A stretch of DNA of 64,000 nt. Source: Prorocentrum cordatum. Taxonomy: Eukaryota; Sar; Dinophyceae; Prorocentrales; Prorocentraceae. The stretch is taken from contig CAUYUJ010014612.1 of the NCBI GenBank assembly GCA_963575745.1, forward strand, positions 153,501-217,500, read 5' to 3'. Shown piece by piece: positions 4,207 through 27,235 of the stretch (its first letter is position 1; each line of letters starts with the position of its first letter). The notes beneath the pieces are model-generated. The model was not told the origin of the DNA, did not search any database, and saw only the letters and a list, made by a program, of their open reading frames with translations. The translations under genes and the position numbers were made by a program.

Positions 4207-7042
4207 ATGGGGTTATCTCCCGATTCTCCTGGCGTGGAGGAGGAACCTTCTCAGTCGCCGGCCTCCGCCGAGGCGCCTTCGGGGCCATGGGAGGCGGCCA
4301 CACCGGACACCGCCTTCGATGACGACGAGACCGCGGACACCGCCTCCGAGCCGAGACCATCGAAGAGAGGCAGCCGCGAGTCAGTGATGATGACGAAGGC
4401 GAAAGACTACACGAAGCAGTGGTTTGCCACTGGCAGCAACCGCGATCTACAGCAGATCTCTGGCGAGGATCTCCGCACGATCTGGTGGCTCAGCGTCCGC
4501 GCGATGCAGGCCCGCGCCGAGTTCAAGAAGAGGCAGCTGGAGCTGTCCGAGAGGATGCTGAAAGAGCGGCGGAGTGGGTGTGCGAGCGCGCTCTCGTCGA
4601 CGTACGCCACCCGCTATCAGTGGGCGCTCTTCGTCGTTGTTCATCTCCTTATCACCTTCTTGATTTGGTCCCATTTTTTCCTAAAGAAGTACAGGGAGCA
4701 AGAGGGACTCCCCGAGTTCATCCCCGCGGAGGACGCCCTCGCTCCGGAGGATGCTGGCATGCCAATGCCCAACTACTGGAAGAAGCGTCTGGTTCCGCCG
4801 CTGTTGTTTGGCCTCAAGCACGCCATCCTGTGGCAGATGGTGTGGCTACCTGTAACGATGAGCCGCCACCTTCTGGCCCTAACTGCTCGAACGAAGATTC
4901 GAAAGTTCGTCCCTCTGGAGCACATGACTTTCTTCCACATTGCCCTGGGATACATCACGTGCTTCCTCATCATCGTTGGCACCATCGTGTTCTTGATCTT
5001 CTTCGGGCACGGCTGTCGACAGCACCTCGGGCATTTCGGCCACCCTCTCGAGCCCATCGATTTCTGCGAGAAGATGCAGAGCGAGATCATGATCACAGGA
5101 CTAGGCATCTTCGTCCTCCTGGTGATCGTGATGGTAAGCTCCTTCCTGCGGCGCCACATTCCGTTCGAGTGGTTCTACGTGCTGCACCATTTCGTGTTCG
5201 TCTTGTTCGGCCTGACCATTGCGCACACAATGGACGACCAGTTCCGGGGCGGCACTCGCATCGGCAAGAATCGGTCACAGGATTTCCGATTCATCGCCAC
5301 GACGCTCAGCTTATATTTCTTGGACAGGGCTTGGAGCTTCCTCACCGTGCGGCGCGACGTGCCCGTGCAGGATGCCATGGTCTGTTCCACGAAAAGCATG
5401 CTCACGCTGGTGTGCAAGAAGCCGGTCGACTTCCAGTTCGCTCCTGGCCAGTACGCCTACATCCAGATACCTTCTTTGGACAATTCGTTCCACCCGTTCT
5501 CCATCGGCTCTGCGCCGGAAGAAGCTGTGCTCAGGTTCTACATCGTGGTGTACAAAGGCCAGTGGACCGAGAAGCTGGCCGACGCTATCGAAGAGATGAC
5601 GGTCGGCGGAGTGAACATCATGGGCCCGTTTGGTCCAGGGTTCGATACAAATAACTTCGTGAGCGTCAGCGCAGTGGGCACGGGGACGGGCATCGTGCCC
5701 ATGATGTCGTTGATGAGGGAGCGCTATCACAGGCTGACGCTCATGAACAAGGAGCTGCTGCAAGGGATTCAAGAGGACCCCGAGAAAGTGGTTCGGCTGG
5801 AGCACATGGCGCTCCACGAGGCCGTGAACCACACGAGGCTCATCATGCTGCAGTACAAGTGGAAGTTGCGCTGCATGCGCGTGAGGAGTGGCACGCAGAC
5901 TTCGTTCATCATGTCTAAGGCCACGAATCGTACGTACTACCACTACATGTTCGACATCATCGCGCACGTCGTCCTGCTCCTGGACATGTGTCAGGGCTTC
6001 TGGACGTTCTCTTGGAAGTACCTGAACGAAATGGAGTTCAATGCCAAGTTCCAAAAGGTCGATGCAGTCCAGTGGAAGGCATTGGAGATCATGAGCATCG
6101 TCTGCATCGCGTTCTTCTTGGTGCACCGGGCCTACTTGTGGGCGAACCCTAGCATCTTCAGGCGGTCCTTCGCGGACGTGCTTGATGTGGTGGCAGTGGC
6201 GTTTATGCTCGGCACCCACTTCGCATGGGCGGGCGAGGTTCCGTCCTTTTACATCGCCCCTTCTCACATGGCCGTGCTCTTGCGCGGCTTTTTTGCGCTA
6301 TGGCGCATCGCGCGCATCTACGCCGCCAGTCAAGTCGTGCGCATCGGCGACGCCAGCTCTAAGTTGGGGGTCGAGCACGACCTCGTCAAGAACGGGAAGT
6401 TCCGCGTGCTCTGGATCGTGCGGGGAGGAGACGGCTTCGCGGCCAAATGCATGGAGTTCGAGGACATGATGACGGACTTGCTCCAGAAGTTCAGCCGCTG
6501 GCAGCTGGATCGCCTCTTCGGCCTCGACATCTACATCACGGGCGTGAGCCTAGCCGAGGAGCGGAGGCTCCGGGAGCTCATCCGGGGATCGGCTATCGAG
6601 AGTTGCGCGCGCTTCGAGCGCCCCGACGTTGTCGAGTGGGTGGTCCAGAGGATGTCGGACGTGCTCAGAGACACTCTGCACGAGAGATGCACCATCACGG
6701 GCGGCTCCATGCTCGCCTTCTGTGGGAGTCCTGCGGTGGGCTTGCAGGTAAGCCGAGGAGTGCAGGAGGCGAACATGCACGCCATCGTGCTGCGGATGGC
6801 TGGCTGCCGCATGGCGTTCCAGGAGGAGTACTACGGCGTCGTGGGAGGCAAGCCGAAGGCTCAGGGGCCCCAAGAACCTAGAGCCAGCATTTTGCCCTGG
6901 GGAGCTCTCGCCCCCCCAGACCCCCCCCAAACGTGCTACCTTTCGGGGCCCAAGGTTTTCCGGGGGGGGGGGGCCCGGGGGAGGGCGAGGGCGAGAGCCC
7001 CCCCAGGAAATGTGTTGTTTGTAGGCTCTTGGGGTCCCCTGA
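4207..7042 (+). CDS. NADPH oxidase/ferric reductase-type flavocytochrome with an inserted Hv1-like voltage-sensor domain
   Basis: Predicted membrane enzyme moving electrons from NAD(P)H through FAD and heme across a membrane. Residues 1-130 are a polar acidic N-terminus with no visible EF-hands. Six helices of the ferric-reductase domain follow (about 138-160, 200-227, 242-267, 294-311, 320-342, 361-380), with heme-type histidines H244, H327 and H340. FAD motif HPFSIGSAP lies at 429-437. NAD-domain motifs are GPFGPG 473-478, GTGTGIVPMMSLM 491-503, VLWIVR 734-739 and FCGSPAVGL 838-846. Between the second and third NAD motifs (usual gap a few dozen residues) sits about 230 residues carrying four helices S1-S4 (580-712). 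S1 has D593, S3 has VLDVV with D660, and S4 has LWRIARI at 698-704. There is no S5-S6 pore. The start is the first Met of the frame. Read unspliced, the frame runs to 7119 through low-complexity sequence. A putative GC-AG intron (6859-7024) would give ...KPKALGVP and a stop at 7040-7042, total 889 residues. Family motifs are seen directly; the proton-channel role is inferred. Confidence 0.9.
6859..7024 (+). other. Putative GC-AG intron at the 3' end of the oxidase gene
   Basis: The last family-conserved codons lie just upstream, and then G/C homopolymer sequence begins. The segment starts GCTCAGG and ends TTTGTAG. The hexamer AGGCTC occurs at both boundaries (6857-6862 and 7023-7028), as often reported for dinoflagellate introns and introner-like insertions. 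Splicing keeps phase 0 and reaches a TGA after five codons. An alternative is that the coding frame continues unspliced to 7119. Confidence 0.4.
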
Positions 7043-7146
7043 AAGGCGCAGGTGCGAAGGATGCTTGGCAGCCAGCGCAGCAGCGTCTCCTGATTAGACC
7101 ACCGCCACCTATCTGGTGATTTGAACATCTCCCCTCCTTTTCCGTG

Positions 7147-13285: not shown

Positions 13286-15562
13286 CTAACTCAGATATCG
13301 GGCCCGATCTCCAAGAGTGAAGCCTCGAAAGAACCCCATGGCGAAGAAGCGCATGACCCACTCCAGATGTCCGAGACCGTCGGTCACCACAGATGACTCT
13401 CCCGCCAACGTGGACTTGACCACCCGCTTCACCCGATAACTCCTCCAGATCAATGGGCTCAACGGAGAAACCCTGCCCAGCTCCATGTCCCTGTTAGTCA
13501 CCCCGATGATGTAGCCCCCTTGCGTGTGGCCCATGTTGGACATTTCTTTCGACGAGTAGTCTGAGTGGAGGATGAAGGTAAGCTCGGCGATCGGGATCGA
13601 GGGGTATCGGATCTCGAGGTCTGCAAACTGCTGAGCACGACCAGCCAACATATTTCCTTTCCTGATGTCACCGACGGTGGGGTGAGGCATCTTCTGTTGG
13701 TTCGAACTCACGAGGATGCTGAGGTCTGGCCGGGTCTGAGTCGCCAGCCAGTTCCCCCGCTGGTTGAGAGAGATGAAATCTTTTATTTCTGACGGGACCG
13801 CCAGAGCATCGGCACTTGCATGTCGGCGGGTCGACACCCGCTCCATCTCCTCAGACGCGCACTGGTGCTGCGTCTGCACGATGGTGTAGTCGGGGAGCTG
13901 CCGCAGCCGCGACCCGACAAACTCTGCCTCCTTCTCGTGCCACTTGCGATAGGGAAAGCGGCACCTCAGCTGCGACAAAGCCTCGGCCCACTTAGATCCC
14001 CGGCCTCCGAACACGCCGTCATCCACGTGTTGGCCGATGACCCCGCACAGGTCGCCAGACCGAGCCACTCGAAAAGGCTCTGCTCCCTGGCCGTCGATAA
14101 CGCGGTACTCGTCGAGGTCGAATTCCACGGACTCGCCGACGTCCTCGAACAGCAGCAGCACGCACGGGTCCATGGGATGCTGCACGAAGCCCAGCTTCTC
14201 GATCAGGAACTTACTGAAGGTCAGCCACCACAGCTGAGGCTGGTCGCTCCTGCCGTAGCCGTTGATGACCTCGCAGAGCTGATCCCCGTGCATCCCGTCC
14301 GGCAGGAACTCCGACGGCAACGAAACGTAGATCGCGCCGTGCTCTGCCGGTGCCAGCGACGCGTCCGTCTCGAGGAAGGCCCCTTCCACGTCCCCGATGG
14401 CCAGCGGGAACTTGGCCGAGGCGATCGTCTGAAGGACGAACGCCCTCCCGTTCGAGGACAGCGTCGGTGCCTGAGTGCGGCCCGCCTTCACCAACTCCAG
14501 GAGATCGGGGTCCTTGAACCCCTGGATGGTCATCCTACACTTGACCACCACGTTGCCCTCCTCGTCCTCCTTCTCCGTCAAAACGGGTCGGGGCTTCATA
14601 ATGCGATCAGGCTGGGTAGACCGCACTCTCCTCGACTCCTCAAGCGGAAGGGGACGCCAAGCCTGGGTCTTCTCGATCAGCTTGCTGTACTCCTTGGCGT
14701 AGCCCTGCGCGATCTTGGCCAGCCCGTCCTTCGAGCACCAGCGCGGCTCTCGCCTGTCGAGCTCTCGCCTGCCTCTGGCGAGCAGGACCTCCTCGGTGTC
14801 CACTGCCAGGATCTCGTCATCATCGTCGCTGTCGGGCGAAGCGGTGACTGTCAGGACTGACTGCGCACGCTGCTGCTTGGGTCGCCCAGGCCGGCGAGCC
14901 GACAGGCTGCGCTTCGGGGCGACACTCGCCCTCGCCGCCTGGGGGACCGGGTCCCCACACCCAGGAGGCATCGGCATCTCGCTCTCGACGCGCGGGCGCT
15001 TCGCCTCCTCCACAGACGTCTTGCACCGCAGCCGCTTCCGAACCTCAGCCGGCTCAGAGTCGCCAGAGGCCCCAGCGGATCCAGCATCGCCTTGATCACC
15101 CTCCGTCTCCTCGTTAGGCCAGTCACCCGGCTCGTCCTCTGGGACCGGGATCTCGGCGGAGTCGGCGGCAGGCGGCTCGGCTCCGGCAGGTGGTGAGGCC
15201 TCGGGTTGTGGTGGGGCCTCAGGTGGTGCCGGCCGAGGGTCGCCTCCTGCTGTCTCTGGGACAGGTTCCTCCTCCTCAGCGGCCTCCGGCGGCCGAGCGT
15301 CAGCGGTGATGTCCGAGTAGAACTTCGCCTTCATGTCGTCAAGGTCGACGGTGTGAGTACGCAGCGACGACTCCACTAGGCGCCATGCTGCCCTCTCCTC
15401 CGAGTTGGCCGGGCGCAACTGCTCTGGAGAGGCCTTCAGCACGCTACCCGGCACGGCGATCCAGTAGTTGCCGCGGACCGCGCCCATGCACACGCCAGGC
15501 CTCCAGCGGTAGTGGGCTCGTCGCCCAGCCACCTTCTTCACATTGCGCCAGACCGCCACCAT
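13286..15562 (-). CDS. Copia reverse transcriptase and N-terminal RNase H
   Basis: 758 codons. The first 100 residues continue the integrase C-terminus (GDMVAVWRNVKK chromodomain-like strand region). An acidic/Pro-rich linker follows at about 100-250. The RT starts near 290 (SKDGLAKIAQGYAKEYSKL) with KCRMTIQGFKD, the catalytic strand DVEGAFLETD, and the second catalytic motif HVDDGV near residue 510 in place of YVDD. RNase H starts at LHSDYSS and includes STLAGESS, the counterpart of SSTEAEY. The frame ends at TAG 13286-13288, inside RNase H. Role: copying element RNA into DNA. Confidence 0.9.
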   Translation of the reverse strand: MVAVWRNVKKVAGRRAHYRWRPGVCMGAVRGNYWIAVPGSVLKASPEQLRPANSEERAAWRLVESSLRTHTVDLDDMKAKFYSDITADARPPEAAEEEEPVPETAGGDPRPAPPEAPPQPEASPPAGAEPPAADSAEIPVPEDEPGDWPNEETEGDQGDAGSAGASGDSEPAEVRKRLRCKTSVEEAKRPRVESEMPMPPGCGDPVPQAARASVAPKRSLSARRPGRPKQQRAQSVLTVTASPDSDDDDEILAVDTEEVLLARGRRELDRREPRWCSKDGLAKIAQGYAKEYSKLIEKTQAWRPLPLEESRRVRSTQPDRIMKPRPVLTEKEDEEGNVVVKCRMTIQGFKDPDLLELVKAGRTQAPTLSSNGRAFVLQTIASAKFPLAIGDVEGAFLETDASLAPAEHGAIYVSLPSEFLPDGMHGDQLCEVINGYGRSDQPQLWWLTFSKFLIEKLGFVQHPMDPCVLLLFEDVGESVEFDLDEYRVIDGQGAEPFRVARSGDLCGVIGQHVDDGVFGGRGSKWAEALSQLRCRFPYRKWHEKEAEFVGSRLRQLPDYTIVQTQHQCASEEMERVSTRRHASADALAVPSEIKDFISLNQRGNWLATQTRPDLSILVSSNQQKMPHPTVGDIRKGNMLAGRAQQFADLEIRYPSIPIAELTFILHSDYSSKEMSNMGHTQGGYIIGVTNRDMELGRVSPLSPLIWRSYRVKRVVKSTLAGESSVVTDGLGHLEWVMRFFAMGFFRGFTLGDRARYLS

Positions 15563-25601: not shown

Positions 25602-27235
25602 AGTTTCGGCACACCCCGCACACGTTTCGTGGCCCCATGGGGAGCTCCACCGAAGGCCCCAGCGGCAGGGTTCGCATGCCTCCCCACCACCCATTTCGGC
25701 ACACCCCTCACACGTTTCGTGGCCCCATAAGGAGCTCCACCGAAGGCCCCAGTGGCAGGGTCGCATGCCTCCCACCACCCATTTCGGCACACCCCGCACA
25801 CGTTTCGTGGCCCCATAGGGAACTCCACCGAAGGCCCCAGTGGCATGCCGGCACACCCCTCACACGTTCGTGGCCCCATAGGGAGCTCCACCGAAGGCCC
25901 CAGTTTCGCATGCCTCCCCACCACCCATTTCGGCACACCCCTCACACGTTTCGTGGCCCCATAGGGAGCTCCACCGAAGGCCCCAGTGGCAGGGTTCGCA
26001 TGCCTCCCCACCACCCATTTCGGCACACCCCTCACACGTTTCGTGGCCCCATAGGGAGCTCCACCGAAGGCCCCAGTGGCAGGGTTCGCATGCCTCCCCA
26101 CCACCCATTTCGGCACACCCCTCACACGTTTCGTGGCCCCATAGGGAGCTCCACCGAAGGCCCCAGTGGCAGCGGTTCGCATGCCTCCCCACCACCCATT
26201 TCGGCACACCCCTCACACGTTTCGTGGCCCCATAGGGAGCTCCACCGAAGGCCCCAGTGGCTGCGTTCGCATGCCTCCCCACCACCCATTTCGGCACACC
26301 CCTCACACGTTTCGTGGCCCCATAGGGAGCTCCACCGAAGGCCCCAGTGGCTGCGTTCGCATGCCTCCCCACCCCCATTTCGGCACACCCCTCACACGTT
26401 TCGTGGCCCCATAGGGAGCTCCACCGAAGGCCCCAGTGGCAGGTTCGCATGCTTCCCCACCCATTTCGGCACACCCCTCACACGTTTCGTGGCCCCATAG
26501 GGAGCTCCACCGAAGGCCCCAGTGGCAGGGTTCGCATGCCTCCCCACCACCCATTTCGGCACACCCCTCACACGTTTCGTGGCCCCATAGGGAGCTCCAC
26601 CGAAGGCCCCAGTGGCAGGGTTCGCATGCCTCCCCACCACCCATTTCGGCACACCCCTCACACGTTTCGTGGCCCCATAGGGAGCTCCACCGAAGGCCCC
26701 AGTGGCAGGGTTCGCATGCCTCCCCACCACCCATTTCGGCACACCCCTCACACGTTTCGTGGCCCCATAGGGAGCTCCACCGAAGGCCCCAGTGGCAGGG
26801 TTCGCATGCGCCCCCACCACCCATTTCGGCACATCCGTCAAACGTTTCGTGGCCCCATGGGGATTTCCACTGCAGGCCCCAGTGACTGGGTTCGCATGCG
26901 CCCCACACACATTCCGGCACACCCCTCACACGTTTCGCGGCCCCATAGGGAGCTCCACCGAAGGACCCAGTGGCTGCGTTCGCATGCCGCCCCCACACCC
27001 ATGTCGGCACACCCCTCACGCGTTTCGTGGCCCCACAGGGAGCTCCACCGAAGGCCAGCGGCTGCGTTCCCATGCCGCCCCCACACCAACTTCGGTGCAC
27101 CCCTCACACGTTTCGTGGCCCCATAAGGAGCTCCACCGAAGGCCCCAGCGGCAACGTTCGCATGCCGCCCCCACACCCATGTCGGCACACCCCTCAAACG
27201 GTTCGTGGCCCCATAGGGAGATCCACCGAAGACGG
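25602..27235 (+). repeat. 90-bp satellite array, 19 units
   Basis: The unit runs from CCCATTTCGGCACACCCCTC through ACACGTTTCGTGGCCCCATA, GGGAGCTCCACCGAAGGCCC and CAGTGGCAGGGTTCGCATGC to CTCCCCACCA. Unit starts are seen at about 25604, 25691, 25781, 25848 (truncated), 25924, 26014, 26104, 26195, 26286, 26376, 26460, 26550, 26640, 26730, 26820, 26908, 27000, 27088 and 27178. Central units (26014-26800) are near identical; units after 26800 are more diverged. It is preceded by a CAT run at 25559-25591. It makes long false frames on both strands. Confidence 0.97.

Follow-up and report, generated by a model that had tools for sequence, protein, structure and literature searches.

A Prorocentrum cordatum NADPH oxidase of NoxD/preNOX layout whose four-helix insert may be a voltage-sensor-like module

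Can an electron-exporting oxidase carry a voltage sensor within its own chain? The question is raised by an NADPH oxidase (NOX)-type gene of the dinoflagellate Prorocentrum cordatum, located in a 64,000-nucleotide stretch of contig CAUYUJ010014612.1 (positions 153,501–217,500, forward strand; hereafter the window). NOX enzymes move electrons outward, an electrogenic reaction. In phagocytes, as a passage of PMC10377628 describes, the proton channel Hv1 is a protein separate from NOX. A preliminary description of the locus instead proposed an Hv1-like voltage sensor inserted into the NADPH-binding lobe of the oxidase itself. We find that the protein has the NoxD/preNOX layout, which is not new, and we tentatively read its insert as a voltage-sensor-like module with a reduced Hv1-type charge set; this reading of the insert may be the new part.

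The gene is a single open frame on the + strand (window positions 4207–7119, ATG to stop, 970 codons), uninterrupted as had been claimed and free of internal stops. The start given earlier stands, whereas 7042, given as the end of the feature, is not the end of the coding frame. Homology fades past about codon 879 (nucleotide 6843), where the homologue P0004 also ends, and codon 880 is a stop in two sister copies of the same genome (L011 and L012), so that the shared protein end probably lies near codon 879; other relatives continue with variable tails. The 91 codons that the window copy reads beyond the common end (6844–7119) match among sister copies only.

Ferric reductase, FAD and NADPH domains follow one another in NOX order, as shown by Pfam, the predicted model and the fold match, and the predicted chain matches the human NOX2 fold over its full length. 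The ferric-reductase/NOX transmembrane (TM) domain covers about residues 135–345 (4609–5241), supported by Ferric_reduct (PF01794, residues 215–337, E = 2e-8), conservation and the NOX2 fold match, and is followed by the FAD-binding domain (residues 394–464, 5386–5598; FAD_binding_8, PF08022, E = 3e-11) with HPFSIGSAP from residue 429. The NADPH lobe opens with its first strand and GTGTGIVP (residues 486–498, motif at 491–498; 5662–5700), continues through the remainder of helix α1 and a linker to S1 (residues 499–571, 5701–5919), and resumes behind the insert at residues 731–879 (6397–6843) with β2 VLWIVR (734–739), FCGSPAVGL (838–846) and the C-terminal EEYYGVV, the last part being backed by homology, model and fold match. 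The FAD motif (429–437) and the three NAD motifs of the preliminary description were thus all found in place. Pfam at E 1 lists PF08022 and PF01794 only, and thus no EF-hand in the protein.

NOX enzymes hold two haems through two histidines in TM3 and two in TM5. TM5 here contains H327/H328 and H340 (pair H327/H340) and TM3 the first histidine, H244; the second TM3 histidine, 14 residues further on (residue 258), is absent in 85 of 85 homologues having the first. TM2 carries an almost invariant histidine, H205 (78 of 80 sequences), which might serve as replacement ligand for the outer haem. Because the second TM3 histidine is missing, we call the protein NOX-type by domain order and fold, and superoxide is its putative product.

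Between GTGTGIVP and the remaining NAD motifs, four hydrophobic peaks (residues 584–602, 621–639, 655–673 and 689–707) coincide with long helices in two AlphaFold2 models, in agreement with the four further helices reported earlier. Alignment and models, joined by hydrophobicity for S1, place D593 of S1 (about residues 580–606, 5944–6024) at human Hv1 D112, F637 of S2 (about 621–645, 6067–6141) at F150, and D660 of S3 (about 655–676, 6169–6234) at D174; S4 (about 687–713, 6265–6345) contains ALWRIAR (697–703) with W699, R700 and R703. All five residues that had been singled out (D593, D660, W699, R700 and R703) hold the positions assigned to them, and the insert thereby has a mid-S1 acid at the place of the Hv1 selectivity filter. 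Compared with human RLWRVAR, ALWRIAR differs at the first arginine and at one neutral position, leaving the Hv1 motif RxWRxxR incomplete, with the tryptophan and the second and third arginines kept. The window copy has A697 at the first S4 arginine, H640 at E153 and H671 at D185, with Hv1 numbers counted from D112 on the 5oqk letters. No S5–S6 pore follows, as had been stated: β2 of the NADPH lobe comes next, after a linker of about 17 residues (714–730) in the predicted model, and the NADPH lobe is predicted to close around the insert, which answers the structural check proposed earlier. Pfam, model and fold match all support a NOX whose NADPH lobe is interrupted by four inserted helices. A read-through intron was ruled out as the source of the insert, because the segment keeps the reading frame and has homologous counterparts in 97 of 106 aligned proteins.

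The preliminary description knew of no established family with this layout, but there is one. In two red algae, according to Kawahara et al. 2007 (PMC1940245), NoxD carries four extra predicted helices of unknown function that separate the first NADPH sub-region from the second, the NoxD/preNOX layout occurs in red algae (Ccrboh type) and stramenopiles (PMC1940245, PMC3591440), and the red algal insert is "predicted to function only as an anchor to the membrane" (PMC9524095), according to passages of these papers. With the layout already described, our finding is a further member with a new reading of its insert. Among the matches listed for open-licence literature (title and start of abstract), no paper combined a NOX with a voltage sensor in a single polypeptide, which is not proof of absence.

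Homologues number 107. Three protein searches, the second of which, with alignment A2, added only P0010–P0013, yielded P0002–P0109; organisms named in the third search were mostly diatoms, with one chrysophyte. The alignment comprised 106 sequences, with P0002 and P0003 (change of reading in S4) and P0109 (weak, E 3.8e-4) left out. The S4 column is reached by 97 sequences; nine stop earlier or lack S4. Three residues stand out: the S3 aspartate (660) is kept in 95 of 97 sequences reaching the column, the last S4 arginine (703) in 92 of 97, and the S2 phenylalanine (637) in 92 of 98. Residue conservation in the insert exceeds chance. The S1 and S4 charges are distributed differently. Of the 16 sequences with R700, 15 also have an acid at 593 (D in eight and E in seven, which fits a need for charge); the remaining one, P0010, has its aspartate one column before. 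Elsewhere in the alignment, 80 further sequences can be read at the S1 and both S4 positions, and they have neither the S1 acid nor R700, and 86 of 101 with a letter at 593 have neither D nor E there. Uncharged sequences combine aspartates at 660 and 671 in 71 of the 81 with letters at both, with the spacing of Hv1 D174/D185 (counted on 5oqk letters), where the window copy has histidine at 671. In a midpoint-rooted tree of the catalytic core (86 of the 106 sequences, short or S4-less ones dropped, 13 of 16 charged ones kept), the charged state appears in two groups, one of four sequences (support 0.998) and one of nine (0.964), and the uncharged sequences fall together except P0089, which joins the 0.998 group under this rooting. 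Co-occurrence of S1 acid and S4 arginine was accordingly dropped as proof of a salt bridge, because it amounts to only one or two events on the tree and the Fisher P ignores kinship.

The P. cordatum genome (4.13 Gb) contains long copies on 11 further contigs (12 stretches, L009–L020), with short or weak matches on a few more. L009 and L010 each give one unbroken match, and the other eight of L009–L018 match in at least two pieces; five of these ten (L011, L012, L014, L016 and L017) contain in-frame stops, in L011 and L012 only at codon 880. L019 and L020 also have internal stops, and L018, matched in six pieces, has C and Q at the TM5 histidine pair. Across the S1–S4 segment of 11 fetched places, D593, D660, W699, R700 and R703 are kept in all 11 and F637 in nine. 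Ratios of nonsynonymous to synonymous substitution rates (dN/dS) of the whole frame, window copy versus L009–L018, were 0.48–0.86. Against L009–L013 and L015, the window copy gave 0.36–0.60 for the insert and 0.45–0.64 for the core; L009 versus L010 gave 0.22 and 0.14, respectively. Among the 15 pairs of those six copies, insert values were 0.86–1.83 in ten and 0.22–0.76 in four, with one pair lacking a value and few changes overall, so that the dN/dS test of the insert is mixed. In the JGI predictions P0002 and P0003 the reading of S4 changes after GFF, at window positions 6289–6294; their printed tail would come from one extra T in the T run of the window, whether it reflects an allele, a copy that has died or a mistake in assembly. 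An origin of the copies by retroposition, with a relic spliced leader as its mark, was unsupported: a dinoflagellate leader sequence, allowing up to three mismatches, is unmatched within the window.

Whether the insert descends from voltage sensors was approached by profile, sequence and structure. The insert profile matched a voltage-sensor profile at P 4.2e-5, with none of 100 shuffles as good, which, together with residue placement and the joint occurrence of S1 acid and S4 arginine, is suggestive of homology. Several results weigh against it. Adding the P. cordatum Hv1 to the profile comparison weakened the scores; the PF00520 search proposed earlier reported no match to the insert at a Pfam threshold of 10, unlike the free Hv1 of this species (3.7e-4); the PDB-sequence search gave no voltage-sensor match and Foldseek no significant one; and the place of human R205, the first in S4, is without arginine here and in every one of the 96 aligned sequences that have a letter in that column. 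The insert profile showed no similarity to Ci-VSP alone, and comparison with a voltage-sensor profile of P. cordatum S1–S6 channels led nowhere. (Part of the analysis used 23 of 32 insert pieces; structure alignments A4 and A7 had 60 and 52 rows.) In structural comparison S1–S4 channels were among the best matches, a point in favour, with unrelated bundles scoring about as high. The four helices may instead be an unrelated bundle whose only role is to tie the lobe to the membrane, the Hv1-like residues being chance or convergent. This possibility is serious, nearly level with the voltage-sensor reading: it agrees with the published red algal interpretation (a passage of PMC9524095), with the null searches, with the scores of unrelated bundles and with the large diatom-type group, in which the bundle persists but neither the S1 acid nor R700 does. 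The near-invariant S3 aspartate, S4 arginine and S2 phenylalanine would nevertheless be odd in a plain anchor, as would the joint retention of S1 acid and S4 arginine, and the profile match far exceeds shuffles. The Hv1-like character claimed earlier is suggested by residue placement and profile similarity, and is not borne out by Pfam, PDB, Foldseek or the first arginine.

Less probable, and in our view distinctly doubtful, is that the insert forms a built-in outward proton path offsetting the charge and acid that exported electrons leave behind, the part that Hv1 plays beside phagocyte NOX2. S1 aspartate, S2 phenylalanine and S4 W-R-x-x-R lie at Hv1 places, and a channel lacking the first S4 arginine can still conduct protons (a passage of PMC10377628). 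The equivalents of that arginine, E153 and D185 are nonetheless missing, as is the S1 acid in most relatives, and the genome already has a free-standing Hv1-like gene (L022, G000:C18993:155531-155773; S1 VIDVFL, S4 RLWRFVRIVH), so a built-in path would not be the cell's sole one. With the first S4 arginine missing and a free Hv1 present, we rank voltage tuning above proton conduction. It seems very improbable that this copy is dead or misassembled and its layout without function here: broken and fragmented sister copies, the S4 change in P0002 and P0003 and the whole-frame dN/dS point that way, but the window copy is open throughout, the insert persists to S4 in 97 of the 106 aligned homologues, and the unbroken L009 and L010 show low dN/dS in both core and insert.

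We therefore retain, tentatively, the voltage-sensor-like module of reduced charge, which in the P. cordatum lineage comprises the S1 acid, S2 phenylalanine, S3 aspartate and two S4 arginines, and which may descend from a voltage sensor. Electron export would depolarise the membrane, depolarisation would shift S4 of the insert, and this shift would tune hydride transfer via the NADPH lobe. In the predicted model the linker from S4 into β2 is short, so that a moving S4 could displace the lobe, in the manner of voltage-sensing phosphatases, and thereby couple it to membrane potential. A small proton leak through the insert is conceivable, and in diatoms and other relatives without S1 acid and R700 the module may chiefly serve to fix the lobe to the membrane. 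Bolder, and unlikely on present evidence, is an electrogenic oxidase of one chain in which a working Hv1-type sensor splits the NADPH lobe, perhaps passing compensating protons, with the extra helices of the whole NoxD/preNOX family being degenerate or working sensors of common origin. If true, one polypeptide would sense the voltage it creates. The voltage-sensor reading would give helices so far called function-unknown or an anchor a directly testable function and would unite in one chain a coupling for which phagocytes use two proteins; it would also bear on how superoxide-releasing phytoplankton handle exported charge.

Elsewhere in the window, a 758-codon frame (13289–15562, − strand) weakly matches a reverse transcriptase (RVT_2, E 0.0056, below the cut-off), nine other long frames have no Pfam match at 0.01, and a tandem array occupies 25905–27231 (90-bp unit, 14.8 copies, 93% matches).

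Comparison with known systems places the protein among several. Human NOX2, NOX5 and DUOX1 share its ferric-reductase helices, FAD and NADPH lobes and full-chain fold but lack the insert, and NOX5 has the second TM3 histidine that the present family lacks. NoxD/preNOX shares the NOX core, with no EF-hand found, and the four extra TM helices between NADPH sub-regions, a likeness by description rather than by tree; the passages of those papers assign neither fold nor function to the helices, which here bear an S1 acid and S4 W-R-x-x-R. Hv1 has the same S1 aspartate, S2 phenylalanine, S3 aspartate and S4 W-R-x-x-R without pore helices; the P. cordatum insert differs at the first S4 arginine, E153 and D185 places, has no PF00520 match and sits within an enzyme, in a species with a separate Hv1. 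For an S4 without the first arginine, the nearest tested channel seen is AcHv3 (LPWRxxR), whose gating is shallow and which leaks protons at rest according to a passage of PMC10377628. Ci-VSP, which lacks the S1 acid and S4 tryptophan (same source), offers the proposed working principle, a sensor of four helices with S4 running into a cytosolic enzyme of the same chain; in P. cordatum that enzyme is an oxidase instead of a phosphatase, and the sensor would be nested in the NADPH lobe, which continues behind S4.
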